Below are positions 18,352 to 35,191 of a stretch of 35,567 nt of DNA, one piece after another. Under the pieces are notes generated by a model that saw only the letters and a program-made list of their open reading frames with translations, did not search any database and had not been told where the DNA came from. This DNA comes from Spartinivicinus poritis (GTDB lineage Bacteria; Pseudomonadota; Gammaproteobacteria; Pseudomonadales; Zooshikellaceae). A program made the position numbers and the translations under genes. Each line of letters begins with the position of its first letter. The first letter of the stretch is position 1. The stretch is from contig NZ_JAPMOU010000052.1 in the NCBI RefSeq assembly GCF_028858535.1, positions 1 through 35,567 on the forward strand, given 5' to 3'.

Positions 18352-21300
18352 TTATTCAACCAAATCAAACACCACCTCATCAGCAAAAATAAAACTAGGC
18401 TTTCCTGCCCCCGGGTGCCAATCTGGGCAATTACCAATAATTTCTCCTGTTATACGGATATATTGAAATGCCTCTTCATCAACAAGTTTTACTGTAGGGG
18501 TAAATACTTCTGCTGGCCTGAAGTCACCTGGTGTTTTATAAGGAATATTTTTGACTTGTTTAAATGACTCACCATCGGTTGAAATAGCATAAGTGACATT
18601 TTTAGGTAAAAAAATCCAGGATCGGCTATCCTCTAAAAAACGAGTGGCTACGGAATTTACTTTTCGAAGCGTTTTTAAATCAATAGTTACATCAAAATTT
18701 ACATTATAAAAGCCTTGCCAGTTTGGGTGCCTGAAGTTCGTGCTACCAGTTTGAAAGTCCACTAAACTGATAGCACCATTAGCAGGATAAGACGGCGTAT
18801 ATTCCGTATGGTAGGTTACACCAAATTGATAAGGTATTTTTATGTATTCTAAAGATTGTATATAACTAGGTAAAAAGCCTTCCTTTACTGCCAATGCTTT
18901 TAATACCGTTGTATCTGTAAATGTTAACGGCTGAGAATAAACTGGCGATTGTTGAGTAGGCTGCTCCCCATTTGTTGTATAATGTATTTTCACCCCTGGC
19001 TCTGTACTGTTAACTGCCACATTAACTGAGTCATAAAAATTCTTACTTGGCGAATTAAATAAAGGTACTGGCGTTAAAGGCTCAAGTTGCTGATAGTGTT
19101 TTGGGCGATGACTTATCGAAGCACCAAACTCTGGGTTCGACTCTGCTGCCATATAAAATACCAGCTCACCGCCTGCTACAATATCCTCATGTCGTATATA
19201 ACTATAAGGATAGTCGTTACCATTTAGCTCCACTCGGTCAATATAAAAGTTATCGGCTGTTAGCCCTTTGGCTTTTATTGTAAAAGTTTTACCGTCTTCC
19301 AGCGGCAGGCTTACTTGATTAAAGCGAGGGGTACCCAATACATAAATATCACTGCCAGGCGCAACAGGATAAAAGCCTAGTGCACTAAAAATATACCAAG
19401 CAGACATTTGACCACAATCCTCATTGCCACTTAACCCATCAGGTTTAGTAGAATATAACTTCGTCATTATTTGATTAACTTTTTCCTGTGTTTTCCAAGC
19501 AGCACCAGCAAAACTATACAAATAAGCAATATGGTGACTAGGCTCATTCCCATGAGCATATTGACCAATCAACCCAGTAATATCCTTTCCAGGTATCTCT
19601 GATACTGTATTAAACATCTCATCCAGCTTCGCGATAAATCGTTCATCTCCACCTAGCTTACCTATTAACAACTGCACATAATGAGGCACAAAAAAGTTAT
19701 ATTGCCACCCATTCGCTTCTGTGTAATGAACCGTGGGTCGTTTAGGGTCAAATGGTTCGATCCAGTTGGTGTACTGCTTTGGCCGTATAAAGCCAATGGT
19801 AGGATCATATAAGTTAACAAAAGCCTGTGCTCGCTTACGGTATAATTGCCAGTCGTCCAGATATCCCATCGCTTTAGCCATTTGGGCAATTGCCCAATCA
19901 TCAAAGGCATATTCCAAGGTAATTGATACGGATTCTCCTTCTTCTTCCGCCATAATATGCCCAAGTTTACGGTACTGAGCCAAACCACGATAATCACGGT
20001 CCATTGCAGCTTTTATCGCTTGATAAGCTAACTGATTATCAAACCCCTTAATACCTTTAATGTAGGCATCTACAATCACAGGGATAGAATGTTGACCAAT
20101 CATGGTACCAGTCTCATGACCTGCTAACTCCCAAATAGGTAAATGGCCACCCTGCTGATACATGGTTAACATGGTATTAATAAAATCTGATGTTCTTTGT
20201 TGATCGATTAAAGTTAGCAGTGGGTGTTCAGCACGAAACGTATCCCATAATGAAAAAACTGTATAATAATTAAAATCTCTGGTTTTATGGATTTTTTTAT
20301 CATGTCCTTTATAGCTACCATCCACATCATTAAAAACATTGGGTGCCAGCATAGAGTGATAAAGTGCTGTATAAAAAGTCTTTTTATTGGCTGGGTTTTC
20401 CTCCTTGCCAAGCTGAATTCGCTTTAGCTCATTTTCCCAGGTAAGTTCTGCAGCTCGTTTGGCTCTATCAAAATCAAAATGAGGCATCTCAGCCATCAAG
20501 TTTTGCTCTGCCCCTGCTAAACTAGTATGAGAAATACCCACCTTAACTTTTACTTCTTCAGTTTTTTTAGGAAAAGAAAAATAGGCAGCAATGCTTTTAC
20601 CGTTTACTTTTTTTGTATTTTCTAACAGCGCCCTGCCTTGCTTAATGCCATATTGTTTGACTGGCTGAGAAAACTCCATTACAAAGTAAACCGTTTGATC
20701 CTGAGCCCAACCGTTGGTTTTACGATAACCTTTCACCCTGTAAGGGCTGATTACTTCCAGCTGTAAATCAATAATTTCATCAGAGACTACCCCATGGCGT
20801 AAATCCAGAATCATGTTCGCTTGCTTATCTACAGGATATTGATAACGATGAACACCTACGCGATGAGTAGCCGTCAACTCTGCATTAATATCATAATCTA
20901 GCAGTTTTACTTGATAATAGCCCGGTGACGCAGACTCCTGATCATGTTCAAACCTTGACCGATACCCCGTTTCTGGTTGCTCTTCAGATCCCTGTTCTAA
21001 TTGAACAACGCCTGTCGTTGGCATTAATAAAATATCGCCATAGTCACCTACACCAGTACCACTTAAGTGAGTGTGAGAAAAGCCAATTATTGTGTTATCT
21101 GTATAATGGTAGCCTGAACTGGCATCCCAATTATTTTGCCGTGTATCTGGGCTTAATTGCACCATACCATAGGGCATAGTTGCACCAGGATAAGTATGAC
21201 CATGCCCACCTGTACCAATAAAAGGGTCCACCCAGTCAATGAAATAGTCTGGTCTCCTCTCCTGAGCATGACTAATGCTAATAGCAGTTACTACAAATCC

Positions 21301-21363
21301 TGCAGTAAAAAAAAGTACGCCAACTAATTTATTTCGGAAAACTTTTTGTCTCATCCCTGTCAT
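18352..21363 (-). CDS. Secreted GH92 alpha-mannosidase with C-terminal accessory domains
   Basis: A 1003-residue glycoside hydrolase family 92 enzyme, a calcium-dependent exo-acting alpha-mannosidase that trims N-glycans. A signal peptide ends at SHA, about residue 33. The N-terminal domain has FIGTGGHGHTYPGATMPYG and SHTHLSGTGVGDYGD. The (alpha/alpha)6 domain has SLWDTFRAEHPL, WELAGHETGTMIG, HGNEPSHHIAYLY and GNEDCGQMSAWYIFSALGFY, covering the known catalytic and metal-site regions. After about residue 790 comes a chitobiase-type C-terminal beta module (PGVKIHYTTNGEQPTQQSP), then a discoidin-like domain. GTG at 21366 and ATGs at 21363 and 21354 are possible starts; AAAGG precedes 21363. It has its own transcription unit. 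Confidence 0.95.
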   Translation of the reverse strand: MTGMRQKVFRNKLVGVLFFTAGFVVTAISISHAQERRPDYFIDWVDPFIGTGGHGHTYPGATMPYGMVQLSPDTRQNNWDASSGYHYTDNTIIGFSHTHLSGTGVGDYGDILLMPTTGVVQLEQGSEEQPETGYRSRFEHDQESASPGYYQVKLLDYDINAELTATHRVGVHRYQYPVDKQANMILDLRHGVVSDEIIDLQLEVISPYRVKGYRKTNGWAQDQTVYFVMEFSQPVKQYGIKQGRALLENTKKVNGKSIAAYFSFPKKTEEVKVKVGISHTSLAGAEQNLMAEMPHFDFDRAKRAAELTWENELKRIQLGKEENPANKKTFYTALYHSMLAPNVFNDVDGSYKGHDKKIHKTRDFNYYTVFSLWDTFRAEHPLLTLIDQQRTSDFINTMLTMYQQGGHLPIWELAGHETGTMIGQHSIPVIVDAYIKGIKGFDNQLAYQAIKAAMDRDYRGLAQYRKLGHIMAEEEGESVSITLEYAFDDWAIAQMAKAMGYLDDWQLYRKRAQAFVNLYDPTIGFIRPKQYTNWIEPFDPKRPTVHYTEANGWQYNFFVPHYVQLLIGKLGGDERFIAKLDEMFNTVSEIPGKDITGLIGQYAHGNEPSHHIAYLYSFAGAAWKTQEKVNQIMTKLYSTKPDGLSGNEDCGQMSAWYIFSALGFYPVAPGSDIYVLGTPRFNQVSLPLEDGKTFTIKAKGLTADNFYIDRVELNGNDYPYSYIRHEDIVAGGELVFYMAAESNPEFGASISHRPKHYQQLEPLTPVPLFNSPSKNFYDSVNVAVNSTEPGVKIHYTTNGEQPTQQSPVYSQPLTFTDTTVLKALAVKEGFLPSYIQSLEYIKIPYQFGVTYHTEYTPSYPANGAISLVDFQTGSTNFRHPNWQGFYNVNFDVTIDLKTLRKVNSVATRFLEDSRSWIFLPKNVTYAISTDGESFKQVKNIPYKTPGDFRPAEVFTPTVKLVDEEAFQYIRITGEIIGNCPDWHPGAGKPSFIFADEVVFDLVE

Positions 21364-21389
21364 CACACCTTTTCTCTAGTTTAAAGGGA

Positions 21390-21465
21390 GTCGTGAAAGT
21401 ACTTCAAATTAAATCCCTTCTCCTCCGTGGGGGAGAAGGGATTTAATTTGAAGTACTTTTGCGAC
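21390..21465. repeat. 76-bp near-perfect inverted repeat upstream of GH92
   Basis: Two 38-base arms meet at 21427/21428. The left arm runs GTCGTGAAAGTACTTC to CCCTTCTCCTCCG. Thirty-four positions are complementary, and the other four would be G-U pairs in RNA, so the transcript could fold into an unbroken hairpin. It ends 27 bases upstream of the GH92 ATG. The ends match the element at 18178-18282. Confidence 0.75.
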
Positions 21466-21532
21466 ATCCTTGTTATCAAAACCAACTATTAAAACAGGCG
21501 TTGTATATATTTTTATGACAATGGCAGTTTAT

Positions 21533-22900
21533 TTATATTACCAGTGTTTTCTGAATACTCATTTCCCGTATAGCATAGTAAATACCCTCCCGGCCAACAC
21601 CACTGGCTTTTACGCCACCAAATGGAAAATGCTCTGCTCTAAAACCAGGGCCATCATTAACAGCCAAGGTACCAACTTCAAGCTGTTCAAATAAATCTTT
21701 TGCTAAATTAATAGACTCAGTAAATATTCCTGCCTGCAAACCGTAAGGATTGTCATTGATCAATGGAATAATATCATTTATTTCATTAAATGCATGAATA
21801 GGCATAACTGGCCCAAATGTTTCATCTTTTACCAATTCACTATCAGTTGCTACATTTTCTAATATTGTTGGGTAAATAGTATTATTGTCTCGCTTATTTC
21901 CAAGTAATACTATTGCGCCTGATTCAACTGCCTGATTAATACGTTGCTCCACCACATCAGCTGCCTGTTTATTAATTAGTGGTCCCACAAAGGTTGCCGG
22001 ATCAGCTGGGTCTCCAACCTGAAGCGCAGCTGCCTTTGCTAGTAACCCTTCAACAAATTGAGAATAGATAGCTTGATGAACATAAATACGTTTTGCAGCC
22101 GTACAACGTTGTCCTGCCGTAGCAAACCGCTGGTTAATTGCTGCATTAATAGCAAGCTCGATATTTCCATCCGGCATGATAACCAGCGGATCATTACCTC
22201 CTAATTCAAACAATAACTTTTTATATCCTGCCCTGTTTGCAATGGCTTCACCAGCCTGGCTGCCGCCAGTAAAATTAATGGCTGCCACACGAGGATCCGC
22301 AATTAACTCACTTAACACAGGAATATCTGGCACTACCAGTTTCAGCGCATTCTTCGGTATACCTGCTTCATAGCAAAGATCAACCAGTAATTTGGCTGAC
22401 AGATAATTCTGTGGTGCTGGCTTAAACAAGATTGGATTGCCTGCAGCAAATGCAGGCCCTATTTTATGCATGGCAATATTTATTGGAAAGTTAAAAGGGG
22501 TTACACAAAGTACGACACCTATCGGCCTCCAGCAAACTAAGCCCCATTTACCACGTTTTGGTGAGTAAGCATCTGAATCTAATAACTCACCATCAATTTT
22601 TCTTACCTCAATAGAACAGGCTTTGGTAGTGTTAACTGCTCTATCTAGTTCAACCCTGCTATCACTAATGGTTTTACCTGTTTCTTGAGTGATCAAGTCA
22701 GCAAGTTTCTCTTTATGCTCTGTTAAGAGCTTTCCCAACTTTTCTAAAATCTCAGAACGTTCTGCAGCACATAAAAGCGCTATGGTTTGCTTACTGCTAT
22801 CGACGAGTGATAATGCACTTTCAACCTCTGTTGCTGATGTATAGTTAAACTCACCAACTAGATTGTTGTTATAGGGGTTAATTATTTGATAATCCATCAT
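21533..22900 (-). CDS. NAD(P)-dependent aldehyde dehydrogenase, candidate for sulfinoacetaldehyde or acetaldehyde
   Basis: A 455-residue aldehyde dehydrogenase superfamily member. The oxyanion Asn137 is in TPFNFP, the nucleotide-binding segment is FTGGSQAG, the general base Glu232 is in FELGGNDP, and the nucleophile Cys266 is in GQRCTA. FELGGNDP is typical of the branch that includes phosphonoacetaldehyde and lactaldehyde dehydrogenases. The gene lies 14 bases after a TauE/SafE exporter on the same strand and opposite an omega-aminotransferase, so its substrate is probably the aldehyde made by that enzyme. Two adjacent ATGs (22900, 22897) follow GAGGA. Specificity cannot be read from sequence; malonate- or succinate-semialdehyde are alternatives. 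Confidence 0.92.
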   Translation of the reverse strand: MMDYQIINPYNNNLVGEFNYTSATEVESALSLVDSSKQTIALLCAAERSEILEKLGKLLTEHKEKLADLITQETGKTISDSRVELDRAVNTTKACSIEVRKIDGELLDSDAYSPKRGKWGLVCWRPIGVVLCVTPFNFPINIAMHKIGPAFAAGNPILFKPAPQNYLSAKLLVDLCYEAGIPKNALKLVVPDIPVLSELIADPRVAAINFTGGSQAGEAIANRAGYKKLLFELGGNDPLVIMPDGNIELAINAAINQRFATAGQRCTAAKRIYVHQAIYSQFVEGLLAKAAALQVGDPADPATFVGPLINKQAADVVEQRINQAVESGAIVLLGNKRDNNTIYPTILENVATDSELVKDETFGPVMPIHAFNEINDIIPLINDNPYGLQAGIFTESINLAKDLFEQLEVGTLAVNDGPGFRAEHFPFGGVKASGVGREGIYYAIREMSIQKTLVI

Positions 22901-22914
22901 TACTTCCTCGTATA

Positions 22915-23667
22915 TTAATTAATTAGTGTCAACAACTGATAACCGAGTCGAATACCTGCAATCAATAGCACTAGTTTCAACAATATAAAGAAAAACTGTT
23001 TATTTATTTTTTGGAGTAATTTAATACCCAGATAGTTACCTGCTGCACAGGCAGCCAGTAGCAGTAAAATTATTTCTAAATGATCCAAAAATGAAAACCC
23101 CAAGTACATATAAGCAGGAATCTTCAACAAGTGAGTAAAACATTGCATTGCTGATTTATTGGCAACAACCTCTTCTTTACTAAAGTCATCACGCACAAAA
23201 AATACGGCTAGCAATGGATCAATTGCACCGACTAATATACCAATTATCCCTGTTGCCACACCAACATACAGAAAATTACTATCCTTAATCACCAGGTTGG
23301 GAAGTTTATTTGGTTTAAATACAGTGTATGTAATTAAAACCAGCAAAATAAAGAGTGGAATACTTTCATTAACCAACTGTTCTACCACTATCACACAGGC
23401 AATAGTGCCAAATAATGCACCGATACAAAATGGTATAACGATACGCCAACGGATACTGGTTAATAAAAAGTAAATTCTGATTAAGTTATTACCAAACTGA
23501 ACAATACCATGTAATGCCACCAGTGGACGTAAAGGTATGACCGTATTCATTGCAGCAAAAAGCAACATCCCGCCCCCCATACCAGTAACCGTTGATGTTA
23601 ATGATGCAACAAAAGCCACCAAGGAAAGCAATACTACTGTTGTGATACTTAAGTCGATAACTTCCAA
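22915..23667 (-). CDS. TauE/SafE-family anion (sulfite or sulfonate) exporter
   Basis: About 250 residues, nearly all hydrophobic, with roughly eight membrane segments. The family signature is visible in FVASLTSTVTGMGGGMLLFAA near the N-terminus and GIIGILVGAIDPLLAVFFV in the second half, an internal repeat typical of the fold. TauE/SafE proteins export sulfite, sulfoacetate or related anions made in organosulfonate catabolism. The start is taken as a TTG at 23667, which has AGGAG 8 bases upstream; an earlier TTG at 23703 has none. It precedes the aldehyde dehydrogenase by 14 bases, so they form an operon. Confidence 0.85.
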   Translation of the reverse strand: MEVIDLSITTVVLLSLVAFVASLTSTVTGMGGGMLLFAAMNTVIPLRPLVALHGIVQFGNNLIRIYFLLTSIRWRIVIPFCIGALFGTIACVIVVEQLVNESIPLFILLVLITYTVFKPNKLPNLVIKDSNFLYVGVATGIIGILVGAIDPLLAVFFVRDDFSKEEVVANKSAMQCFTHLLKIPAYMYLGFSFLDHLEIILLLLAACAAGNYLGIKLLQKINKQFFFILLKLVLLIAGIRLGYQLLTLIN

Positions 23668-23767
23668 GCGGTTTACTCCTGGGCTAGCAGTGCAAAATAA
23701 CAATTATAAGGCACTTCTATATTTACTAGAGTTTTTTCCTATTGATAGAGCCAACTTTTATATTTAG

Positions 23768-23788
23768 TTGGTCCAGCAACTGGACCAA
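23768..23788. promoter_or_regulatory. Perfect palindrome, candidate MocR operator
   Basis: TTGGTCCAG and CTGGACCAA flank a 3-base spacer in the 249-base divergent region between the exporter and the aminotransferase genes. The half-site CTGGAC resembles the reported TauR recognition sequence CTGGACYTAA. Another AACTGG half-site pair occurs upstream of the symporter (27916-27949). Confidence 0.55.
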
Positions 23789-23916
23789 ATGGCACCAATT
23801 ATCTGGCTCTACATAAAGCCATCAGTGCCTGATTATCATCAGAATCAGTCTTAGTTACCCTTCAGTGAAGGTGTTCGCATATTGACATGGTTCTATAGAC
23901 AAAGGATAAACATCGT

Positions 23917-25230
23917 ATGACGCACCAACCATTACCCAACATGAATTACCACTGGATGCCTTTTACCAGCAATCAAACATTTAAAGCGGATCCTCAATTA
24001 TTTTGCAAGGCAGAAGGTGTTTATTATTGGAACCATCGAGGTGAAAAAATATTAGATGGTTGCTCAGGCTTGTTTTGTACGCCAGCAGGCCATGGCCGAA
24101 AAGAAATCGCCAACGCTGTCTTTCAGCAACTGCAAACCATGGATTACTCCCCCCACTTTATGCGGGCTAATCCAGCTTCTTTTGAGTTAGCAGAAAATAT
24201 AGCGAGTATGCTGCCCAAAACGATTAATCGAGTATTCTTTTGCAATTCTGGTTCAGAGTCTGTTGATACAGCCATTAAAATTGCTTATGCCTATCACTAT
24301 GCTAACGGCCAACCCCAACGTCAGCGTTTAGTATCACGTGAAAGAGCCTATCATGGGGTTAACTTAGGCGGCACCTCTTTAAGTGGTATGGTAAAAAACC
24401 GTGAAGTTTTTGGCCAAGGCATTCCTGGTGTTGTACACATGCGCCATACCTGGCTAACCGAAAACCAGTTTGCCATGGGCGAAGGTGAACAAGGGGTTGA
24501 ATTAGCTGACGACCTGTTACGAGCAGTACAGCTTTATGGAGCTGAAACAGTAGCTGCCTGCTTTGTTGAGCCCATCGCAGGATCAACGGGTGTATTAGTA
24601 CCACCTAAAGGTTATTTAAAACGTTTAAGAGAAATTTGTGACCAATATGGAATATTACTGGTATTTGATGAAGTAATCACTGGCTTTGGCCGAACAGGAA
24701 AAGCGTTTGCAGCTGACAGTTTTGGTGTTATCCCCGATATTATTACTATGGCCAAAGCATTAACCAATGGCGCCCAACCAATGGGTGCAATTGCCGTTAA
24801 ACAAAGTATTTATGATACCATTGTTAATGCAGGGCAACCTGGCGTGCCAGAGTTTTTCCATGGCTATACTTACTCTTGCCATCCAGCAGCCTGTGCAGCC
24901 AGTTTAGCAACATTAGCTATTTATGAGCAGGAAGGCTTATTTGAAAAAGCGGCTGTACTTGCACCACTCTTTCAAGAAGCCATTTTTTCATTAAGCCGGT
25001 TACCTATTATTAAAGATATTCGTGGTTATGGCTTACTCGCAGGGTTTGATGTTGAACCAGATTCCGTACCAGGAAGCAGAGGTAATGACTTACAACTCAA
25101 ACTTTTTGAAGCAGGTCTACATATTAAAACAACAGGTGATGCAGGAATTGTTGCTCCTGCATTTATTTCAACCCCCAGCCATATTGAGCAAATGACTGAT
25201 ATTTTACATAAGGTATTAGGTCAGTATTAG
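23917..25230 (+). CDS. Omega-amino acid:pyruvate aminotransferase (class III, PLP)
   Basis: A 437-residue class III PLP aminotransferase. HWMPFTSNQTFKADPQLF near the N-terminus and YYWNHRGEKILDGCSGLFC match the beta-alanine/omega-amino acid:pyruvate aminotransferase group (EC 2.6.1.18), which also contains taurine and hypotaurine transaminases. Active-site features: CNSGSESVDTAIK (109-121) for the cofactor phosphate, RAYHG with Tyr145, Asp251 in FDEVITGFGRTG, and Lys280 (MAKALTNG) for the Schiff base. It moves an amino group from a terminal amine to pyruvate, giving alanine and an aldehyde. It is divergent from the exporter/aldehyde dehydrogenase pair. AAAGGA precedes the ATG. Beta-alanine is an alternative substrate. 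Confidence 0.93.
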   Translation: MTHQPLPNMNYHWMPFTSNQTFKADPQLFCKAEGVYYWNHRGEKILDGCSGLFCTPAGHGRKEIANAVFQQLQTMDYSPHFMRANPASFELAENIASMLPKTINRVFFCNSGSESVDTAIKIAYAYHYANGQPQRQRLVSRERAYHGVNLGGTSLSGMVKNREVFGQGIPGVVHMRHTWLTENQFAMGEGEQGVELADDLLRAVQLYGAETVAACFVEPIAGSTGVLVPPKGYLKRLREICDQYGILLVFDEVITGFGRTGKAFAADSFGVIPDIITMAKALTNGAQPMGAIAVKQSIYDTIVNAGQPGVPEFFHGYTYSCHPAACAASLATLAIYEQEGLFEKAAVLAPLFQEAIFSLSRLPIIKDIRGYGLLAGFDVEPDSVPGSRGNDLQLKLFEAGLHIKTTGDAGIVAPAFISTPSHIEQMTDILHKVLGQY

Positions 25231-25309
25231 TGTAGCCTTACCTCTTGGTTAATTATGTGCCAATATAAGCTTTCACAAGTTTACCAAGAGGATTTTTTAT
25301 GACATATAT

Positions 25310-26092
25310 TTACGACCCCATTTTCCCGTACCGGCTATATTGGGATAAGTGAATTACGATTATACCTTGATCAGTTTTTACTGGATAATAGATTTCATAC
25401 CGGCCATCACTTGATGAAAACCTATGGCTGGAGACTCTGCCATCGAATACTGAATTAAGATATTGCCTTTCCTCACTAGATGTGCTCAATATATAATTCA
25501 CTCGTAGTGCTTTTTCCTCAGATCCAAGGCCAGAATAGCTGCTAAAACCTAAAAGTAATTGTTTACCATTCAAACTATCTCTAGCAATAACTGTCACCTC
25601 TGGAAACTTTTCTTCTACTTTACTAAGTACTTTAATATCATGACTGGCACTCTCAATATACTTTCGAGAGAAAGAATAGCGAGACAGCCTTTCCATTATA
25701 TCTTGTTGCTCTCCAATTAAAGCTGAAGCGGATGAAACTAAATAATCTTCCTTTTTCTTTGATGTTGCAATATCTCCAAGGTAGAGAAGCATAAATATTA
25801 CAACCAAAGATCCTAAAAAACCTAGTAATGTATATTTATACTTATCTTTTGGTACATTTTCTGTATATTTCTTACCTTCAGCAATAGCTGTCAGATTAAA
25901 CATAATATTAATAATTATTGAGCCAAGTAAAACTGCAAATATTCCTAATATACTCAGCAAAAATATCTCACTCATGTTTTCTCTAAAGACTTTAAAGCCG
26001 AAGACTGTAGAGCAAGTAAAGATAAAAACCCAGTACACTAATAAAACAATCATTACTAAGGCTATCTTATTTGTTACTTTTACTATATTCAT
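25310..26092 (-). CDS. Membrane protein of unknown function with a soluble C-terminal domain
   Basis: A 260-residue protein not recognised. Three membrane segments occupy the first 110 residues (KIALVMIVLLVYWVFIF, IFLLSILGIFAVLLGSI, TLLGFLGSLVVIFMLLYLG), followed by a roughly 145-residue domain with helical start (SSASALIGEQQDIMERLSR) and strands such as EVTVIARDSLNGKQLLLGF and GRYEIYYPVKTDQGIIVIHL, which could be a sensor-like module. No kinase, HAMP or catalytic motif is seen. It faces the aminotransferase gene tail to tail (79 bases apart). A role in the neighbouring pathway is possible but unsupported. Confidence 0.68.
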   Translation of the reverse strand: MNIVKVTNKIALVMIVLLVYWVFIFTCSTVFGFKVFRENMSEIFLLSILGIFAVLLGSIIINIMFNLTAIAEGKKYTENVPKDKYKYTLLGFLGSLVVIFMLLYLGDIATSKKKEDYLVSSASALIGEQQDIMERLSRYSFSRKYIESASHDIKVLSKVEEKFPEVTVIARDSLNGKQLLLGFSSYSGLGSEEKALRVNYILSTSSEERQYLNSVFDGRVSSHRFSSSDGRYEIYYPVKTDQGIIVIHLSQYSRYGKMGS

Positions 26093-26130
26093 ACTTAATC
26101 TTCCAATTACTTATACTGCTTCAGTTTAAC

Positions 26131-26209
26131 TATAGGGCACCTCTAATTATTGTTTATGGCCTCTGCGCAAGCTGACGGGGTCTTGAACAATAATTAGAGA
26201 TGCCCTATA
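26131..26209. mobile_element. 79-bp MITE-like element with 24-bp terminal inverted repeats
   Basis: The ends TATAGGGCACCTCTAATTAT..TGTT and their complement differ at one of 24 positions. The 31-base core is TATGGCCTCTGC to GTCTTG, and 29 of 33 bases of that core region recur at 35192-35224. It carries no gene and looks like a non-autonomous insertion. A 29-codon frame at 26247-26336 beside it is not supported. Confidence 0.7.
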
Positions 26210-26332
26210 TATGATTGATCTCATCAGCCTGTTTCAGGGTTTTTGCATGAAATACTGGAACACCATTCCCTATATTACTGGCCATAAAGTCACTGCCAGT
26301 ATAACACCAAAAGTGGATCAATTCTTAAGCAT

Positions 26333-27799
26333 TTAAGCCAAGCCATTTATTAGTTCTGCAAGCTGTCTTATCCCTTCTTCAATTAGCTCTTCTTGAATAA
26401 AAGAAAATCCTAGCCTCATAAAATTGTCAGGTTTATCATTCCCCAAAAAATGCATGCGACCTGCTTCAATAAATATACCTTGCTTGAGAGCCAGTTGCTG
26501 CAGATTTGTAGTATTAACATGTGTAGGCATTTCAACCCATAACGTACTACCACCAAAAGAAGGAAATATACGGCACTTTGGTAGGTATTGTTTCAAAGCA
26601 GCTTGAAGTATTAACCAACGATTACGGTAAGCTTGGGCTAGTCGCCTAATAAAACTATCGTGATAACCACGAGATAGAAATAAAGCAATAATATGCTGAT
26701 TATTAGCTGGTGGATGTCGTAACATTAAACGACGTAGAGCAATAGCCTGCTGAATCAGTGGCTTTGCTGCTACCATATAACCAAGTCGAACACCTGGCGC
26801 TAAGGTTTTGGATAGACTGCCTACATATATAACGCGATCATTCTTGGCAATACCTTTTAAAGCAGGTGAAGGTTGTGTCACAAAGTTAAATTCACTTTCA
26901 TAGTCATCTTCAATAAGAATGAAATTGTACTTTTCTGCAGCTGCAAGTAGTTCTTGTCGCCTCGCCATAGGCATTGTGACTGTTGTTGGTGATTGATGAC
27001 TTGGGGTTACATACACATAATCACATCTAGCTAACTGTTGATTAACTTCTACACCATGTAAATCAACTGTCAGCGGCTGGATCGTAGCACCCGCCAAGCA
27101 AAAGATATTTCTTGCATCCACATAGCCCGGATCTTCTATGCCAACAACTGTCTTACTATTCATAAGTATACGTGCCAGCATATATAAGGAGTGTTGCGTT
27201 CCCAGCGTAACCAATATTTCATCTTGCGCACAACGAATTCCCCGCCTAGGCAGCACACGGGTTCGTAACTGGTCAATCAGTAAAGAGTCATCAGAGCCTG
27301 TTTGATCAGCTAACCAACGTCCCACTGTTGCACGACTGGAAGCAATCCTACAACATTCTCGCCACTCATTAATTGAGAACAAGCTACTATCTAACTGTCC
27401 ACAAATAAAAGGGTATTGACAATGGCGCCATTCCTCTGGCTTATCTATATTTTGATAGTTTAGAAATGTAAACTGAAAGCGGCTTTGCCAATCAACTTGC
27501 TTATTTATTGTGCTTTCATCAACACATTTAACATATGCTGATTTTTCTTTAACATCTTCGCTAACATAATGGCCTTTTCTTTCTGAAGTTGTGATATAGC
27601 CTTCATCAGCCAACTTCTCATAGGCAAAGACTACAGTGTTTCTAGAAACCTTAAGGTATTTAGCAAGCTTACGGCATGAAGGTAATAAACTTCCTGGTGG
27701 AAAATGACCGTCCAAAATTGCAGAAACCATTATTTCTTGAATTTGCGCTTGTAAACTGATTCCAGGCTTCGGCTCTAAATAAAACAGTTGTTCATACAT
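26333..27799 (-). CDS. MocR-type (GntR/aminotransferase fusion) transcription regulator
   Basis: A 488-residue MocR-family regulator. The N-terminal GntR winged helix (about 12-80) has LQAQIQEIMVSAILDGHFPP, LPSCRKLAKYLKVSRNTVV and ADEGYIT. A linker leads to a class I aminotransferase fold (about 130-480) with EDPGYVDARNIF, DDYESEFN and the PLP-binding SLSKTLAPGVRLGY, Lys331 forming the Schiff base. MocR members include TauR (taurine), GabR (GABA) and PdxR; they sense an amino compound reacting with PLP. Here it lies between the aminotransferase and the symporter, so it probably controls both. It is divergent from the symporter. Confidence 0.93.
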   Translation of the reverse strand: MYEQLFYLEPKPGISLQAQIQEIMVSAILDGHFPPGSLLPSCRKLAKYLKVSRNTVVFAYEKLADEGYITTSERKGHYVSEDVKEKSAYVKCVDESTINKQVDWQSRFQFTFLNYQNIDKPEEWRHCQYPFICGQLDSSLFSINEWRECCRIASSRATVGRWLADQTGSDDSLLIDQLRTRVLPRRGIRCAQDEILVTLGTQHSLYMLARILMNSKTVVGIEDPGYVDARNIFCLAGATIQPLTVDLHGVEVNQQLARCDYVYVTPSHQSPTTVTMPMARRQELLAAAEKYNFILIEDDYESEFNFVTQPSPALKGIAKNDRVIYVGSLSKTLAPGVRLGYMVAAKPLIQQAIALRRLMLRHPPANNQHIIALFLSRGYHDSFIRRLAQAYRNRWLILQAALKQYLPKCRIFPSFGGSTLWVEMPTHVNTTNLQQLALKQGIFIEAGRMHFLGNDKPDNFMRLGFSFIQEELIEEGIRQLAELINGLA

Positions 27800-27915
27800 A
27801 CCTTATTACTACCTATTATTAAACCACTTCCATTCTTATACAACTGTTAATACTGATTTTATTAAATTCTTTGTAAAAAGTGCAAATATACACTAGCCAC
27901 AATCACATAAACGTC

Positions 27916-27949
27916 AACTGGCATTACAAAAAATGTTTAACTGGCACTA
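27916..27949. promoter_or_regulatory. Direct repeat, candidate MocR operator
   Basis: AACTGGCATTA (27916-27926) and AACTGGCACTA (27939-27949) are spaced 23 bases start to start, about two helical turns, between the divergent MocR regulator and symporter genes. Paired direct repeats with CTGG cores are typical for MocR-family operators such as the TauR box. Confidence 0.55.
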
Positions 27950-28024
27950 TTAAACTCTTGTTCACTTTCATTAACCTGACAGATTCATAACTATAAATAA
28001 TTATTTTATAAATGACACCTTATG

Positions 28025-28038
28025 TAAGCAATTGCTTA
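28025..28038. promoter_or_regulatory. 14-bp perfect palindrome upstream of the symporter
   Basis: TAAGCAATTGCTTA is fully palindromic and lies 30 bases before the symporter ATG, a position where an operator or promoter-overlapping site would act. No match to a known site is claimed. Confidence 0.35.
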
Positions 28039-28068
28039 TAGCGGGTATAACTTAGAAGTTAAGGGACT

Positions 28069-29637
28069 ATGAATATTTATAAGCTAATCCTTCCTTTGTT
28101 ATTGGTTAGCAATAACTCTCATGCCGATAGTATAGATACCGCTGTTAATAATTTTCTCGAACCCATTTCCAATGCGTTATCAACCTTTGTTTTTTTCAGC
28201 ATACCCATGTTAGGAGCTGATGTTCCTCTGATTGTTATCTGGCTTGCTTGTGCAGCTCTCTTCTTTACCTGTTATCTAAAATTTATTAATTTACGTGGCT
28301 TTTCCCACGGATTACAACTCATTCGCGGCGATTATAGTAATCCAAAAGCAAAAGGTGAAATTTCACATTTTCAAGCCGTAGCCACTGCAATATCAGGTAC
28401 TGTAGGAGTAGGTAATATTGGTGGTGTGGCTATTGCTATTACTATAGGAGGTCCTGGGGCAGCCTTTTGGTTAGTTTTTGCTGGTTTTTTATCCATGTCG
28501 ACCAAGCTAGTTGAGTGTACCTTGGGCGTGATGTACCGGCGCCACCATGAAGATGGCTCAGTTTCTGGTGGCCCAATGTATTATCTTGAGCATGGAATTG
28601 CTGAAAAAGGCTGGCCTAAGCTAGGTAAAACTATGGGTATTTTTTATGCCCTAGCAATGGTAGTAGGCTGTCTTGGTATTGGTAATATGTTTCAGTCAAA
28701 CCAAGCGTATATCCAATTCGTCAATATTACTGGTGGCGAACATAGTTTTTTTGCTGAACACAGTTGGCTATTTGGTATTCTTATCGCAGGTACTGTTGCA
28801 ACCGTTATTATTGGCGGCATTCACTCTATTGCTAGAGTGGCTGAACGCATTGTACCATTAATGGCTATTCTTTATATCGTTTCAACAATTGTAATTATCA
28901 GCTTTAATTACCAGTTTATTCCCACAGCATTCAAGTTAATCTTGCAAGGGGCTTTTACTTCAGATGGCATCACTGGTGGTATGATTGGAGTAATGGTTAT
29001 TGGTTTTCAACGGGCGTTATTTTCCAATGAAGCTGGTTTAGGTTCAGCCTCTATTGCCCATTCTGCTGTAAAAACTAACGAGCCAGTAAGCGAAGGTATA
29101 GTATCATTATTAGAACCATTTATAGATACTATTGTCATTTGCACCTTAAGTTCACTCGTCATTATTACCACAGCAATTCCCCATGGCTTAATGGATAGCG
29201 GGCTTAAAGGCATTGAGCTAACATCTGCTGCTTTTGCTTACCACATTAGCTGGTTTCCCTACCCATTAGCATTAGCGGCTCTTTTATTTGCATTTTCCAC
29301 CTCTATTGCCTGGTCTTACTATGGATTAAAAAGCTGGACTTATTTATTTGGAAGCAAAAAGAACTCACAATTGATTTTTAAAATGATATTTTGTTTATTT
29401 ATTGCTTTAGGCTGTATGGTTCAACTGGACTCTATTATTAAAATGTCCGATGCATTAGTTTTTATTATTGCAATACCCAACATCCTTGGTTTATATATTT
29501 TAGCACCAAAGGTAAAAAAGGAGCTCAATCAATATATGGCTAAACTTCAACAAGGCAAATTACAAAACTATAGACAACTTAAGTACAATGAAACAATTAG
29601 TTCAATAACAGCAAATGGCCAACCTGCTCAAAAATAA
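28069..29637 (+). CDS. AGCS-family cation:amino acid symporter
   Basis: A 522-residue integral membrane protein of the alanine/glycine:cation symporter family. Family landmarks are ISGTVGVGNIGGVAIAITIG in an early membrane region, GGPMYYLEHG, and GFQRALFSNEAGLGSASIAH, the diagnostic segment. The protein has about ten to eleven membrane segments, and its N-terminus (MNIYKLILPLLLVSNNSHA) could be a cleavable signal. It imports small amino acids with Na+ or H+. Placement beside the MocR regulator and aminotransferase suggests the substrate is the cluster's amine, or alanine made by the transaminase. Confidence 0.93.
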   Translation: MNIYKLILPLLLVSNNSHADSIDTAVNNFLEPISNALSTFVFFSIPMLGADVPLIVIWLACAALFFTCYLKFINLRGFSHGLQLIRGDYSNPKAKGEISHFQAVATAISGTVGVGNIGGVAIAITIGGPGAAFWLVFAGFLSMSTKLVECTLGVMYRRHHEDGSVSGGPMYYLEHGIAEKGWPKLGKTMGIFYALAMVVGCLGIGNMFQSNQAYIQFVNITGGEHSFFAEHSWLFGILIAGTVATVIIGGIHSIARVAERIVPLMAILYIVSTIVIISFNYQFIPTAFKLILQGAFTSDGITGGMIGVMVIGFQRALFSNEAGLGSASIAHSAVKTNEPVSEGIVSLLEPFIDTIVICTLSSLVIITTAIPHGLMDSGLKGIELTSAAFAYHISWFPYPLALAALLFAFSTSIAWSYYGLKSWTYLFGSKKNSQLIFKMIFCLFIALGCMVQLDSIIKMSDALVFIIAIPNILGLYILAPKVKKELNQYMAKLQQGKLQNYRQLKYNETISSITANGQPAQK

Positions 29638-29642
29638 GCATA

Positions 29643-29672
29643 AGGGTTGAGAAAATATGTATTCTCAACCCT
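29643..29672. terminator. Terminator hairpin after the symporter
   Basis: AGGGTTGAGAA pairs perfectly with TTCTCAACCCT over an 8-base loop and lies 6 bases after the symporter stop. It is followed by ATTT only, so the U-tail is short. The convergent cytochrome gene ends 26 bases further on and may share it. Confidence 0.7.
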
Positions 29673-29697
29673 ATTTAAGGTAAAAAATTATTACTAT

Positions 29698-30396
29698 TTA
29701 CTCGCCATAACATGTTGATAAATAGTCTAAAATTATTTTCTTCTTATCAGAGGCAATACTATCCATGCCCTGCTCATCAACCATCCAATCTAGTGTTTCC
29801 TCCCACCGTTCACGATTCATACCTTGCTGAATAACTAACCTTAAAGAATGGCAGCTTGCACATAATTCACTAACTACCTCATTACCTTTTCCGGGTTTTA
29901 ATAGCCTATTTGTTGTTGCTATATTTGTTTCTATTATAGATTTGCTAGGCAAAAGGTCATCAAAAGGAATTTTCCAGTTGGCTTCTTTACTATTTAATGT
30001 AGCAAGCCATGCAATAACAGCTGCACGCTGGGACACATTTTCAATTCCTGGAAAGGCCATTTTGTTACCAGGTGCAAACGCTGCAGGCTGACGCAGGAAT
30101 TTATCAAGCTGTTGAAAATTCCAGCTACCTTGTTTATTCGATAACGCTAAACTGTATTGATAACCACCGGCACTAGCAATACCTCTAGAGGATAGGGCCC
30201 ATAAATTAGGACCTATTTTATGGGGCTGACCTTTCTCAGCACTATGGCACGCTAAACAAACATTAGCGACCTGACGACCAACAGCAGCTAATTCATTTAA
30301 TTTTTCTACTGTTTCATCATTGGTTGATTGGGCATTAGCAGGAACTATCCCTACTAATACTTTCATCAATAGAATACAAGATAAGTATTTTCGCAC
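29698..30396 (-). CDS. Two-haem cytochrome c, likely electron acceptor of the sulfite dehydrogenase (SorB-like)
   Basis: A 232-residue exported cytochrome with a signal peptide (MRKYLSCILLMKVLVGIVPANA). Two haem sites are seen: CLACH (47-51), with KIGPNLWAL and the distal Met113 in GNKMAFPG, as in class I cytochromes c; and CASCH (179-183), followed by RLVIQQGMNRERWEETLDWM.DEQGM, which resembles SorB, the monohaem partner of SorA in Starkeya. So this looks like a class I cytochrome fused to a SorB-type domain. It starts with GTG 23 bases after the molybdoenzyme gene. It would pass electrons from sulfite to the respiratory chain in the periplasm. Confidence 0.87.
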   Translation of the reverse strand: MRKYLSCILLMKVLVGIVPANAQSTNDETVEKLNELAAVGRQVANVCLACHSAEKGQPHKIGPNLWALSSRGIASAGGYQYSLALSNKQGSWNFQQLDKFLRQPAAFAPGNKMAFPGIENVSQRAAVIAWLATLNSKEANWKIPFDDLLPSKSIIETNIATTNRLLKPGKGNEVVSELCASCHSLRLVIQQGMNRERWEETLDWMVDEQGMDSIASDKKKIILDYLSTCYGE

Positions 30397-30419
30397 TAGC
30401 TAACTACCTAAACTGCTGT

Positions 30420-31760
30420 CTAAACTACCCGAACGGCTATCCGGTGAAAGCTGTTATTTAAATACCCCTTAGGATTCCAATTAATAGCAAAAGGCTGGCT
30501 TACACCCTGCTCATCAGTGGCCTTAGCCCACACTTCATAGTAGCCTACCTGAGGGAATTTCACTGTTGTTTTAAAACGTTGCCAAGCACCTTGATTAACA
30601 GGTTGGTTTAATGTTGCTTGTTGCCATGTAGCACCAAAGTCAATTGATATCTCTACTTTTTTTACTAATTTATCACCAGCCCAAGCATGACCACGAACGT
30701 CTAATTCACTTGTTTTTATTTCAACATTGTTCTCAGGGAAAGTAATGAGTGATTTAACTGGCATCTGTTCAATAATAACAAAATCCTTTTCTTCTACTTT
30801 CTCACCTGGAGCTACAGGATGATTAGGTACACGATAAGCTTTACCAGTCATTTTAGGACCATCGTGCACCTGGTTACGCAACTCTATTCGGGTTAACCAC
30901 TTCTGGGAACATGAGCCAGGCCAACCAGGAATAACTAAACGCAGAGGTGCCCCATTCATTGGGTGTAATGGCGCTCCATTCATTTCAAAAGCAATCAAGT
31001 TTTCAGCACCCAGTGCTTTCTCTATAGGAACACCTCTTGAAATAGGTAGTTTACCTGGTTTTCCTGAAAGGTGGCTATCAGCACTATAATGAGCAGTGTA
31101 AACAGCTTCTTCTTGAATTCCTGCCGCATTTAAAACATCAGCTAGCCTTACCCCTGTCCACTGAGAACAGGCAACGGCTCCATAAGTCCACTGATTACCA
31201 CGGGCTTTCGGCTCAAAAAATGCTCTACCATTCCCACCACACTCTAATACAAGATTTTTAGTTACCACATCAAAATGTTTTTTTAGGTCAGAAATTTTTA
31301 GAGATAGTTGCTTATTAACTAAACCATCAATCGTCAACAACCACTTTTCAGGATCAACATTTACTGGAGGAGTTCCATTATTACGAATAAAGTGACGTGC
31401 TGTAGGTGTAACATCATCATCTAATAAATGTGGAGGGGTTTCCGCGTTAACCGGACGGTCATTTAGGATTATAAGGCCATTTTTACCTTGTATTTGCAAG
31501 TCTGACATTCCACTTGCCATTGCAGCAGGAATGAGCCCACCAGGCATATTACGATGAAATGGAATGTAGCCACCTAGAGTAGCAGCCATACTTGCCAAGC
31601 CAAGCCCCTTAAGAAACCCTCTTCGATCAGAATAAGTTTTTCGACCAAATGCAACCTCATCAGCTTTATCTGGATTTTCTAGATAAAGGTCTAACAGATT
31701 TTTCTGATTAGATTGACTTGCATTTTTGGTAATATCACTACTTCTTCTTTTATCAGACAT
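30420..31760 (-). CDS. sorA: Periplasmic molybdopterin sulfite dehydrogenase (SorA type), Tat-exported
   Basis: A 446-residue sulfite oxidase-family molybdoenzyme. A twin-arginine signal DRRGFLKGLGLA starts at about residue 45. The Moco domain has LVLECGGNGRAFFEPKARG, where Cys174 is the molybdenum ligand, then WTYGAVACSQWTGVRLADVL and PLHPMNGAPLRLVIPGWPG. The C-terminal Mo-Co dimerisation domain (about 330-446) contains VRGHAWAGD and SIDFGATWQQA. It oxidises sulfite to sulfate in the periplasm with cytochrome c as acceptor. The ATG at 31760 is chosen because AGGGA lies 6 bases upstream; a longer reading from 31784 lacks this. Operon with the downstream cytochrome. Confidence 0.92.
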   Translation of the reverse strand: MSDKRRSSDITKNASQSNQKNLLDLYLENPDKADEVAFGRKTYSDRRGFLKGLGLASMAATLGGYIPFHRNMPGGLIPAAMASGMSDLQIQGKNGLIILNDRPVNAETPPHLLDDDVTPTARHFIRNNGTPPVNVDPEKWLLTIDGLVNKQLSLKISDLKKHFDVVTKNLVLECGGNGRAFFEPKARGNQWTYGAVACSQWTGVRLADVLNAAGIQEEAVYTAHYSADSHLSGKPGKLPISRGVPIEKALGAENLIAFEMNGAPLHPMNGAPLRLVIPGWPGSCSQKWLTRIELRNQVHDGPKMTGKAYRVPNHPVAPGEKVEEKDFVIIEQMPVKSLITFPENNVEIKTSELDVRGHAWAGDKLVKKVEISIDFGATWQQATLNQPVNQGAWQRFKTTVKFPQVGYYEVWAKATDEQGVSQPFAINWNPKGYLNNSFHRIAVRVV

Positions 31761-32019
31761 CTTAATCCCTATGCAGCAACGCACATACAGTTATACAGAG
31801 GTGCCATTATATACAATAAAGGCTAAATACTTAATCTGTATCAATTTTATACAAAAATATATGTATTACATTTGACGTATTATCTTATTCAAGTACATTA
31901 TTTAGCTATTGGTAACAGCTAACAAATTTAGTACTATAGCGATTCAGTAGATATCAAATATTTGTTCTCAAATCAAGATTTACATTTACTTTACAAATGT
32001 GTTTAGAAGGACATTGGTT

Positions 32020-32808
32020 GTGCTAAAAATAACCAAACGTAGACTTTTGCAGTTACTCATCTCCCTACTACTAGTTAACTTTTTATTTATAAAGTATCTA
32101 CATGCAGATAATACCTTTCCCCATCGATCAAGCTATCCTAATGTAAAAACCATTGAATTAGATGAGCTATATCATAAAAATAAGCAATGTCTTGTTATAG
32201 ACGTAAGATCAAAAATAGAATACGACGTTATTCATATTAGCGATTCTATTAATATTTCTTTAAGTAAAATAAATTTCAGTACGCTAGTTGAAAATGCACA
32301 TAAAAAGCAGAATAAAGCTTGTATTGTATTTTACTGTAACGGTCATACCTGCAAGAAGTCTTATAAAGCTGCACAAAAAATGAGCCATTCTAAACTATAT
32401 AACCTAGTACGTTCGTTTGATGCAGGAATTTTTTCATGGGCAAATAAATACAACAATCAAACCATCCTACTTGGAAAAGTGCTTACAGATAAAAGCAAGC
32501 TGATAAACAAACAAGAGTATGAACAACATTTAGTCACGAAAGCCGAAATAAATGACACGTTTAACACTATTGATATAAGAGATCACTTTCAAAGAAAGGA
32601 AGAAAAAATTCCACTTAAGGCATTAAAACGTATTCCTTTGACGAGAATTCGCCCCCTCCTAAAGAGACATCTTATAAAAGATGAAAATTTACTCTTTATT
32701 GATAAAGTAGGCAAACAAAATCGCTGGCTGCATTATTATTTAAAAGAGTATGGGTACAAAAATTATGTATTCCTAAAAGGTGGCAGCACTACCTTTAATA
32801 AAAACTAA
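32020..32808 (+). CDS. Secreted rhodanese-like protein with one active and one degenerate domain
   Basis: 262 residues. A signal or anchor (RRLLQLLISLLLVNFLFI) is followed by a rhodanese domain: CLVIDVRSKIEYDVIHI and the active-site loop YCNGHTCKKS with Cys106 and a second Cys111. A second rhodanese-like domain (TIDIRDHF, LLFIDKVGKQNRWL, YVFLKGG) lacks a cysteine at the loop, so it is probably catalytically dead. GTG at 32020 is preferred because AAGGA lies 8 bases upstream. A close paralogue follows at 33087. Rhodaneses transfer sulfane sulfur; here, divergent from sulfite dehydrogenase, a role in periplasmic sulfur handling is inferred. Confidence 0.88.
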   Translation: MLKITKRRLLQLLISLLLVNFLFIKYLHADNTFPHRSSYPNVKTIELDELYHKNKQCLVIDVRSKIEYDVIHISDSINISLSKINFSTLVENAHKKQNKACIVFYCNGHTCKKSYKAAQKMSHSKLYNLVRSFDAGIFSWANKYNNQTILLGKVLTDKSKLINKQEYEQHLVTKAEINDTFNTIDIRDHFQRKEEKIPLKALKRIPLTRIRPLLKRHLIKDENLLFIDKVGKQNRWLHYYLKEYGYKNYVFLKGGSTTFNKN

Positions 32809-32846
32809 TAATAAAAATCTAACGACAGCCTGCTAAAATGATTATA

Positions 32847-32883
32847 TTTTTGGGTAAGTTTTACTATAAAACTTACCCAAAAA
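32847..32883. other. Perfect 17-bp hairpin between the rhodanese genes
   Basis: TTTTTGGGTAAGTTTTA pairs exactly with TAAAACTTACCCAAAAA over a 3-base loop. Orientation (T-run first, A-run last) is the reverse of a normal terminator on either strand, so it may be an mRNA-stabilising or processing element. The rest of 32809-33086 shows nothing else. Confidence 0.6.
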
Positions 32884-33086
32884 CTCACATTAAATAGCAT
32901 AAAGAAAACCTCTCACTCTCAAACCTTATAACTACAATACTTAGCTCTATATTGCTATAAAAACCAAGTATTTAAACCAATATTATTTAGCTATATCCAC
33001 TAGCGCAATTATTTCAACTCAATCATGCCTTGAATAACATTTAAACTATAATTATCTCATCAAAAAAACATGTGCTGAGCTAAAAA

Positions 33087-33878
33087 ATGAACCCTATAAT
33101 TTTTAAGCAAAATTATACAGTAGTTATACTGGTAATTATAAGTCTAATCGCTATAAATATCAGTTCTGCGAGCGACTTTCCACTAAGAGAAAAATATAAA
33201 AACATACCTATTATAGAACTTAACACTCTTGGTGAAGAACTTAGTGACACAATAGTCATCGATGTTAGATCTAAAGCTGAATACAATGTTATACATATAG
33301 CTAACGCTCATAATATCCCCCTATCAAATATGGGATTTACTAGTAAAGTACAAAACCTAAGAAAGGAAAATCCAAATAAAAAGATTATTGTGTACTGTAA
33401 TGGACATACTTGCGCTAAAAGCTACAAAGCCACCAAAAAACTAATGGATTCAAATATAGATAACTGTTATGCATTTGATGCTGGGATATTTGACTGGGTC
33501 AACAAATATCCTGAAAACTCATCATTACTTGGTGAGTCTCCTGCAGACTTAAGTAAAATTATAAGCAAAGATGAATTTAAACAACATACACTAGAAAGTG
33601 ATAATTTTGAAAACAAACTTAACTCCACTAAAAATTCTATTATTATTGATATAAGAGAGTCTGTACAACGTAGTTTTTCTCCTAATTATAACAATATTAG
33701 AAACATCCCCTTTGATAGGTTCACCAAAGCACTGAAAAATAACAAATACAAAGATAAAACCTTGTTTATTTTTGATGCTGTTGGAAAACAAGTAAAATGG
33801 CTACAGTATCACTTAAAAAACTACAACTATAAAAACTATTACTTTCTAAAAGGGGGAGTTAAAACATTACAGAGTTAA
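33087..33878 (+). CDS. Secreted rhodanese-like protein, paralogue of the preceding gene
   Basis: 263 residues with the same layout as the preceding gene: a hydrophobic N-terminus (TVVILVIISLIAINISSASD), a rhodanese domain with TIVIDVRSKAEYNVIHI and YCNGHTCAKS (Cys104, Cys109), and a second domain with IIDIRESVQR and FIFDAVGKQVKWL that again lacks a loop cysteine. The two proteins match along most of their length, including FDAGIF.W.NKY and KNY.FLKGG, so they arose by tandem duplication. The ribosome-binding site is weak. Their conserved but cysteine-free second domain suggests a retained binding role. Confidence 0.88.
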   Translation: MNPIIFKQNYTVVILVIISLIAINISSASDFPLREKYKNIPIIELNTLGEELSDTIVIDVRSKAEYNVIHIANAHNIPLSNMGFTSKVQNLRKENPNKKIIVYCNGHTCAKSYKATKKLMDSNIDNCYAFDAGIFDWVNKYPENSSLLGESPADLSKIISKDEFKQHTLESDNFENKLNSTKNSIIIDIRESVQRSFSPNYNNIRNIPFDRFTKALKNNKYKDKTLFIFDAVGKQVKWLQYHLKNYNYKNYYFLKGGVKTLQS

Positions 33879-34980: not shown

Positions 34981-35191
34981 TTTTTCACTCACAACCAATC
35001 TATATCAATTACTCACAATTTAGTTTAGTTGAGTATGCAAAATTTACTTGAAATTATGTTGAGTGATTGCTTTTCAACAACACTGTGTGCGAGTTTACCT
35101 GAAGGCCCTGGAAATGTGTTGCCTGACAGCTCTTGCATAGTGTTGACTTGCTTAGAAAGACAATCAGCTTTACACTTCATAAGCCGTCTTA

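Follow-up and report, generated by a model that had tools for sequence, protein, structure and literature searches.

Taurine nitrogen assimilation with release of sulfoacetate was reportedly described for Neptuniibacter caesariensis by Krejcik et al. in 2008. According to the accessible part of PMC5289682, this bacterium releases sulfoacetate while assimilating the nitrogen of taurine. Another described system is the taurine-to-isethionate cluster of Chromohalobacter salexigens, TauABC-Toa-IsfD-IsfE, where IsfD is a short-chain dehydrogenase/reductase (SDR) of the 3-hydroxy acid dehydrogenase group (PMC6616044), and the consensus CTGGACYTAA is given for the taurine regulator TauR (PMC5320631), as far as the available excerpts of these two papers go. 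The present analysis deals with a stretch of 35,567 nucleotides from Spartinivicinus poritis, referred to below as the window, which is one entire contig (NZ_JAPMOU010000052.1) of a 6.83 Mb draft genome comprising 160 contigs (G000). The part of the window at 21533-29637 very probably constitutes a MocR-controlled module for the use of taurine as a nitrogen source, releasing sulfoacetate. Two further species of the genus (G001 and G002) were found among the relatives and were used for comparison.

In the proposed pathway, the AGCS-family symporter (28069-29637, plus strand) would import taurine together with Na+, as its recurrent genomic context suggests, and an omega-aminotransferase of the AptA clade (23917-25230, plus strand) would pass the amino group of taurine to a keto acid, yielding sulfoacetaldehyde. 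The dehydrogenase SafD (21533-22900, minus strand) would oxidise sulfoacetaldehyde to sulfoacetate, and SafE (22915-23703, minus strand) would export the product. The MocR-type regulator (26333-27799, minus strand), containing the GntR and aminotransferase domains according to Pfam and predicted to play a TauR-like role, would act through paired boxes to activate the promoters of safE/aminotransferase and of AGCS. Since the C-S bond would be left uncut, no sulfite would be formed. The strands alternate along the region: safE-safD are directed leftward, the aminotransferase gene rightward, an uncharacterised gene and the MocR gene leftward and the AGCS gene rightward, followed by a leftward molybdoenzyme-cytochrome pair and rightward rhodanese genes. 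All genes named in an earlier sequence-only reading of the window were found where it had placed them. Its description of them as consecutive does not amount to a single operon, given the alternating strands, and the uncharacterised gene 25310-26092 lies inside the block. Support was found for its broader proposal of an aminosulfonate-type pathway that comprises regulation by MocR, an exporter of the TauE/SafE family and an AGCS carrier.

The module resembles the SafD/SafE system of N. caesariensis in SafD, the adjoining SafE and a MocR protein of 50% identity. It differs in the aminotransferase, which belongs to an AptA subclade and is not PRK07678-like, and in the presence of the AGCS gene, for which the retrieved N. 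caesariensis stretch showed no counterpart. The C. salexigens type is approached by the aminotransferase, which falls in one subclade with that of genome G316, whose cluster resembles the taurine-to-isethionate one; in contrast to that type, sulfoacetaldehyde would be oxidised by SafD rather than reduced, and the cluster has AGCS, not TauABC. A MocR gene, repeated boxes like CTGGACYTAA and divergent target promoters are shared with the taurine regulons of TauR/MocR described in the accessible text of PMC5320631, whereas the target set of the window, comprising safED, the AptA-clade aminotransferase and AGCS, is different. Two traits appear unusual, namely an aminotransferase that is not Tpa but a member of an AptA subclade also holding one from a taurine-to-isethionate-like cluster, and an AGCS clade recurring near SafD, Tpa or SauS. 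It seems on balance probable that this AGCS clade imports taurine in marine gammaproteobacteria, taking at these clusters the place in which one would look for TauABC or TauMLK, and that the genus reassembled the sulfoacetate pathway of Neptuniibacter around an aminotransferase of the isethionate subclade under a MocR operator of the same type.

The assignment of the dehydrogenase is based on NF047626, the NCBIfam equivalog model of sulfoacetaldehyde dehydrogenase, against which the safD product scored 797.1 bits (cut-off 700), the next-best NCBIfam model giving 443 bits (cut-off 650). The protein is 58% identical to SafD of N. caesariensis MED92 (L042), which itself scored 859.6 bits. By the curated cut-off, the enzyme is of the SafD type, which makes specific the sequence-only identification of an aldehyde dehydrogenase. 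SafD above the cut-off was found in 4 of 56 relatives, counting the window genome, and in one of 369 sampled genomes of the class, which was the window genome itself (at most four candidates were scored per genome). The safE gene lies 14 nucleotides from safD on the same strand and begins with TTG, the start codon of the longest frame. Its product, a member of the TauE/SafE family (PF01925), is 51.6% identical to SafE of N. caesariensis and 48.0% identical to that of Vibrio chagasii; this homology and the gene position suggest that it would export sulfoacetate. The safE-like stretch by safD in Zooshikella ganghwensis (G004, L012, 1856-2609) is broken over several frames, by decay or by sequencing error. 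No xsc match over the cut-off was found in the draft genome (best 328.6 bits, cut-off 676.4), in agreement with the sequence-only observation, and dissimilation of the xsc type was rejected; 14 control genomes likewise match the xsc model only below the cut-off.

A scan of named genomes yielded 74 safD loci. Forty of them, with SafD of at least 54% identity and none from the window's genus, were regarded as close, and 28 of these include both 10-kb flanks. A neighbour was counted when the match covered half of the query and reached the identity limit (SafE, 40%; MocR, 40%; AGCS, 55%; Tpa type, 50% to the N. caesariensis protein; AptA type, 45%; sulfite oxidase, 30%; cytochrome, 30%; rhodanese, 25%; TauA, 35%). 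The close loci contained SafE in 33 cases, MocR in 14, AGCS in 13 and a Tpa-type aminotransferase in 12; an AptA-type aminotransferase, sulfite oxidase, cytochrome, rhodanese and TauA were each found at 0 of 40. The 28 loci with full flanks gave 23, 14, 13 and 11 for the same four proteins, and the sulfite oxidase, cytochrome and rhodanese were each absent from all 28. The sequence-only reading had named homologous clusters lacking both sorA and tauE as evidence against itself; the sulfite oxidase is missing throughout the close loci and the exporter is present at most of them. The other 34 safD loci contained AGCS (L048), the Tpa type and mmsA once each and never the sulfite-oxidase unit. In the fetched flanks of all 74 loci, AGCS occurred at 14 (59-68% identity to the window protein) and MocR genes also at 14 (43-50%). 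AGCS accompanies safD in Vibrio, Aestuariicella, Pseudomaricurvus, strain NOR5-3, Spongiibacter and Cellvibrionaceae AOL6; no AGCS or MocR match was found at the Microbulbifer safD loci. The order safE-safD-Tpa type-AGCS-alanine dehydrogenase in Spongiibacter is a gene set fitting the taking of taurine nitrogen via alanine.

The divergent promoter between safE and the aminotransferase gene contains a predicted four-box MocR operator (23746-23811), which would serve both genes. Its layout, TAGAGCCA...TCCAG-CTGG...TGGCTCTA, is common to this gap and to the gap between the Tpa-type gene and safE in Vibrio, and the half-box resembles the TauR consensus. A two-box model was built with sites from other genera, Zooshikella included, and comprised 23 rows in its final version. 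The first model scored the two sites of the safE/aminotransferase promoter at 29.9 and 25.6 bits; the top window sites by the 23-row model were 23779 (minus strand, 30.3 bits), 23746 (plus strand, 26.0 bits) and 27917 (minus strand, 24.2 bits), the next scoring 14.3. The third site is a predicted two-box operator (27917-27949, minus strand) in the divergent promoter of the MocR and AGCS genes. The maxima of 500 block-shuffled windows averaged 12.1 bits (standard deviation 2.6), with the highest at 23.1 and none reaching 23.8. The same three places rank top in G001 and G002, where the MocR/AGCS site scored 24.2 and 21.6 bits, respectively. A 13.8-bit site at 26254, inside the range of the shuffled maxima and outside the top ten of G001 and G002, was not used.

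A motif-free check was made by aligning seven Vibrio promoters and searching the window for their invariant blocks. The 11-base block TAGAGCCAGAT, invariant in all seven aminotransferase/safE promoters, has one exact match in the window, at 23801, within the safE/aminotransferase promoter. The block TGGCTCTACG has three window places within one mismatch, 23804 among them, and three 7-base invariant blocks did not single out the promoter. Run over whole genomes, a string pattern matched six times in G000, seven times in G001 and six times in G002, against one match of its reversed control in G000 and none in the other two. The pattern matches include the reverse safE-side site in each species and the MocR/AGCS site in G000 and G001. 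Another pair of pattern sites seems to be common to these last two genomes. A held-out scan of ten safD loci revealed strong sites at L067 (30.3 bits), L022 (25.9) and L032 (21.1). These comparisons suggest that the MocR protein would bind at both divergent promoters.

The window aminotransferase is a class III enzyme of the AptA family (NF052567, 583.1 bits, cut-off 500), and among PDB entries it comes closest to omega-amino acid:pyruvate and beta-alanine:pyruvate aminotransferases. The safD-linked aminotransferases of N. caesariensis, Vibrio and Zooshikella are of the PRK07678-like type, unlike the window copy, and the Tpa-type proteins at 13 safD loci are only 30-34% identical to it. A FastTree phylogeny of 37 sequences, made up of the matches that had been assigned loci, the second copy of the genome and three Tpa-type proteins, placed the three genus copies (support 1.000) with those of G267 and G147 (66% identity), G321 and G211 (62%) and G316 (57%). 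All eight members of this subclade have GLF and a lysine near the C-terminal GD motif, whereas all 26 other AptA sequences have GLW and an arginine at these places, which we take to be Trp61 and Arg414. The G316 locus surrounds the subclade gene with MocR (41%), an SDR, a TauE-family protein, TauA and a TauB-like ATPase; the SDR scored 325.4 bits against a cut-off of 411 for the YdfG 3-hydroxy acid dehydrogenase, TauA 343 against 304.25 and the TauB-like protein 320.7 against 357. By analogy, this cluster may be of the C. salexigens taurine-to-isethionate type. Weaker sites precede the subclade gene in G267 (L199, 22.3 bits), G316 (L203, 18.3) and G147 (L200, 18.1), and the loci of G267 and G147 also hold a MocR of 51%. 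In G321 and G211 the gene stands beside other genes (an SDR in G321), and no regulator site was found there.

The genome has a second AptA homologue (48%), adjoining a carbon-nitrogen hydrolase and a dihydropyrimidinase (585.6 bits, cut-off 393.25). It is thus in place for the role of the beta-alanine enzyme, leaving the window copy free for another substrate. The clade, the position in the block and the predicted operator shared with safE suggest that this substrate would be taurine.

The AGCS protein scored 379.7 bits against TIGR00835 (cut-off 272.65), and its single PDB match is AgcS (6cse). The cargo of the solved AGCS member is alanine or glycine. A tree of 32 sequences, including 13 of the 14 AGCS proteins from safD loci (L025 was left out), separated a clade of safD-locus proteins, window-genus proteins and those of G007, G050 and G035 from the group at about 50% identity and other paralogues with a support of 1.000. 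In G035 the gene of this clade adjoins a Tpa-type gene (64% to N. caesariensis) on a 5-kb contig, and in G007 (L250, 8116-11016) it directly follows SauS, an acylating sulfoacetaldehyde dehydrogenase (723.5 bits, cut-off 600). The three sulfonate contexts of one clade, SafD, Tpa and SauS, make taurine the best guess for the cargo, and the recurrence of these contexts makes the protein a candidate taurine importer. Among the papers listed by literature searches, none was seen to report a taurine carrier of the AGCS family.

Several observations weigh against a taurine module. The role of AGCS as the importer is drawn from gene context, and AGCS is found at a minority of the close safD loci (13 of 40). 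The genome yielded no orthologue of Tpa; the N. caesariensis enzyme has its closest counterpart there in the window gene, at 34% identity. The nearest relatives of the aminotransferase, those of G267 and G147, adjoin mmsA (717.3 bits in G267, cut-off 448.5; the G147 protein is 88% identical to it), which is a beta-alanine-type arrangement, so that the subclade is not restricted to taurine. The MocR protein exceeds the cut-off of the PdxR model (355.1 bits against 320), as also do the MocR proteins of N. caesariensis and V. chagasii. The centre of the inner boxes measures 3 nucleotides in the window genus versus 2 in the seven Vibrio loci; because of this, the strict Vibrio four-box pattern, which hit the promoters of these seven loci and a single unrelated place (L029), misses the window. 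The second 11-base Vibrio block, TTTAAGTCCAG, does not single out the promoter, and seven of the ten held-out safD loci (L013, L014, L019, L020, L021, L030 and L048) gave no strong site, their best scores being 7.6 to 15.0 bits. The sites used to train the model were selected for their position and similarity among numerous pattern matches, at a time when the window boxes had already been seen; the model is therefore not blind, and its score statistics are somewhat favourable. The motif-free check was judged to offset this weaker independence.

The sequence-only reading had proposed the dissimilation of hypotaurine or taurine in a single pathway, from transamination through spontaneous desulfination to sulfite and acetaldehyde, oxidation of the aldehyde, and export and built-in oxidation of the sulfite by the molybdoenzyme. 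In the hypotaurine desulfination pathway, the acetaldehyde dehydrogenase and sulfite handling belong to one regulon. The aminotransferase could well accept hypotaurine, no xsc over the cut-off was found, and genes for a TauE-family protein and for an enzyme of the sulfite oxidase family lie nearby. Desulfination is disfavoured by the dehydrogenase, which is SafD by the curated cut-off and would leave the C-S bond intact, and by the SafE-like exporter. The sulfite part, moreover, is not joined to the module by the comparisons made. The molybdoenzyme-cytochrome pair lies on the strand opposite to AGCS, and the gaps around the molybdoenzyme and rhodanese genes have no regulator site in the three species: the best scores in the window were 2.4 bits before the first rhodanese gene and 2.3 before the second, and the other two species reached at most 4.8. 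To the left of safD, the window gap gave 0.4 bits; the AGCS-cytochrome gap was negative in the window, 12.7 bits in G001 (marginal and not used) and -4.8 in G002. With the molybdoenzyme missing from the 40 close safD loci and safD from the 13 sampled loci of its own relatives, the desulfination pathway with sulfite oxidation was rejected as highly improbable.

The loci of these relatives comprise 13 stretches. One search had given 12 matches from other genera, of which the two reaching 50% were taken, and a second search contributed 11 of its 12 other matches; some stretches are shortened by contig ends, L102, L151 and L156 most. No match to safD, safE, AGCS, MocR or the aminotransferase was found in the 13 stretches. 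A cytochrome match stands beside the molybdoenzyme relative in 8 of them, and one has a weak rhodanese-like match (24%) about 8 kb away. Of the eight cytochrome relatives, seven match just about one-third of the length. The lack of a regulator site, the absence from the close safD loci and the lack of safD near its relatives are the reasons why the sulfite unit was judged separate, and the molybdoenzyme-cytochrome pair and the rhodaneses look like a neighbour of the module. It may also be supposed that these genes joined the module within the genus and serve it under another regulator, handling sulfite or sulfane sulfur from some other organosulfur source. G001 and G002 hold the block together as well (in G002 the second rhodanese is absent from this position), which favours such a history; genes far outside the block share the same order across the three species, and the synteny within the genus therefore carries little weight. 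Given also the lack of a shared regulator site, this explanation is extremely improbable.

The remaining alternative is the catabolism of beta-alanine or gamma-aminobutyrate, with the AptA-type enzyme feeding a semialdehyde dehydrogenase and AGCS importing beta-alanine. Membership in the AptA family, the PDB matches and the mmsA genes adjoining the closest relatives of the aminotransferase agree with it. The aldehyde dehydrogenase of the block is, however, SafD, and the promoter boxes resemble those that separate the Tpa-type gene from safE in Vibrio. The two residue changes, present in 8 of 8 clade members and in 0 of 26 others, also speak against it, though the mmsA-linked pair shares them. 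As the second AptA homologue occupies the pyrimidine-type cluster, beta-alanine use was rejected as the main function and is very unlikely. Taurine nitrogen assimilation with sulfoacetate release is the reading retained here.

The molybdoenzyme (30420-31784, minus strand; PF00174/PF03404) was labelled SorA-type by the sequence-only reading, and this label could not be upheld: it scored 247.2 bits for SorA (cut-off 600), 210.5 for SorT (570) and 207.3 for SoxC (420). Its best PDB match is SorA (2blf). The alignment spans residues 97-447 and preserves both Cys and Arg in the C-x-G-N-x-R stretch, which is presumably the region of the Mo-ligand Cys. A Tat-like motif, DRRGFLKG, was noticed by eye near the N-terminus. 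The alignment and the motif make periplasmic sulfite oxidation plausible. The adjacent c-type cytochrome (29698-30396, minus strand) has two CxxCH motifs and a SorB score of 46 bits (cut-off 93), and appears to combine a second haem domain with a C-terminal part that weakly resembles SorB. The pair is similar to the SorAB sulfite dehydrogenase in combining a sulfite-oxidase-family molybdoenzyme with an adjoining c-type cytochrome, and differs from it in scores below the SorA and SorB cut-offs, the extra N-terminal haem motif and the location outside the module. The rhodanese-domain proteins (PF00581) are encoded at 31999-32808 (plus strand; secreted-looking by eye) and 33087-33878 (plus strand); the second comes from a genus paralogue set. 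Each genus genome has 4 to 5 rhodanese paralogues, partly in tandem, and outside the genus a relative at E 1e-15 was found in G025 only, one of 53 genomes.

The uncharacterised protein (25310-26092, minus strand), which both other species of the genus also have, gave no match in Pfam and NCBIfam scans; it shows hydrophobic N-terminal stretches by eye and is 80-94% conserved within the genus. It is separated from the MocR gene by an inverted repeat at 26131-26209 (31 nucleotides, 87% complementary, 17 nucleotides between), in a stretch that is largely missing in G001 and G002 and looks like a small mobile insertion. Another inverted repeat, at 21384-21471, has 43-nucleotide arms, 2 nucleotides apart and 88% complementary; it lies between safD and the gene 18352-21366, encoding a large protein which we take to resemble a secreted GH92-type glycosidase, and is retained in part in G001 and missing in G002. 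A hairpin with an 11-pair stem (29643-29672) is located between the convergent AGCS and cytochrome genes and was called terminator-like on the minus strand only; terminator-like matches across the region were not above shuffles (11 versus 9.5, standard deviation 2.6). The promoter scan did not exceed shuffles (46 versus 46.3 expected), and Rfam and tRNA scans of the window gave no matches. To the right of the rhodanese genes, a leftward gene (34195-34998) encodes a family 3 solute-binding protein (PF00497).

Taurine is described as a substrate of marine prokaryotes in the available part of PMC6647121. In the accessible text of a sponge-symbiont study, users of sulfoacetate were found and the safD route that could feed them was not (PMC12625764). 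If the proposed pathway is true, several marine genera would import taurine by a sodium symporter family, retain its nitrogen and pass on sulfoacetate. The predicted regulator site may serve as a handle for finding such modules elsewhere, and it seems that a sulfite oxidase beside a taurine cluster need not belong to that cluster.

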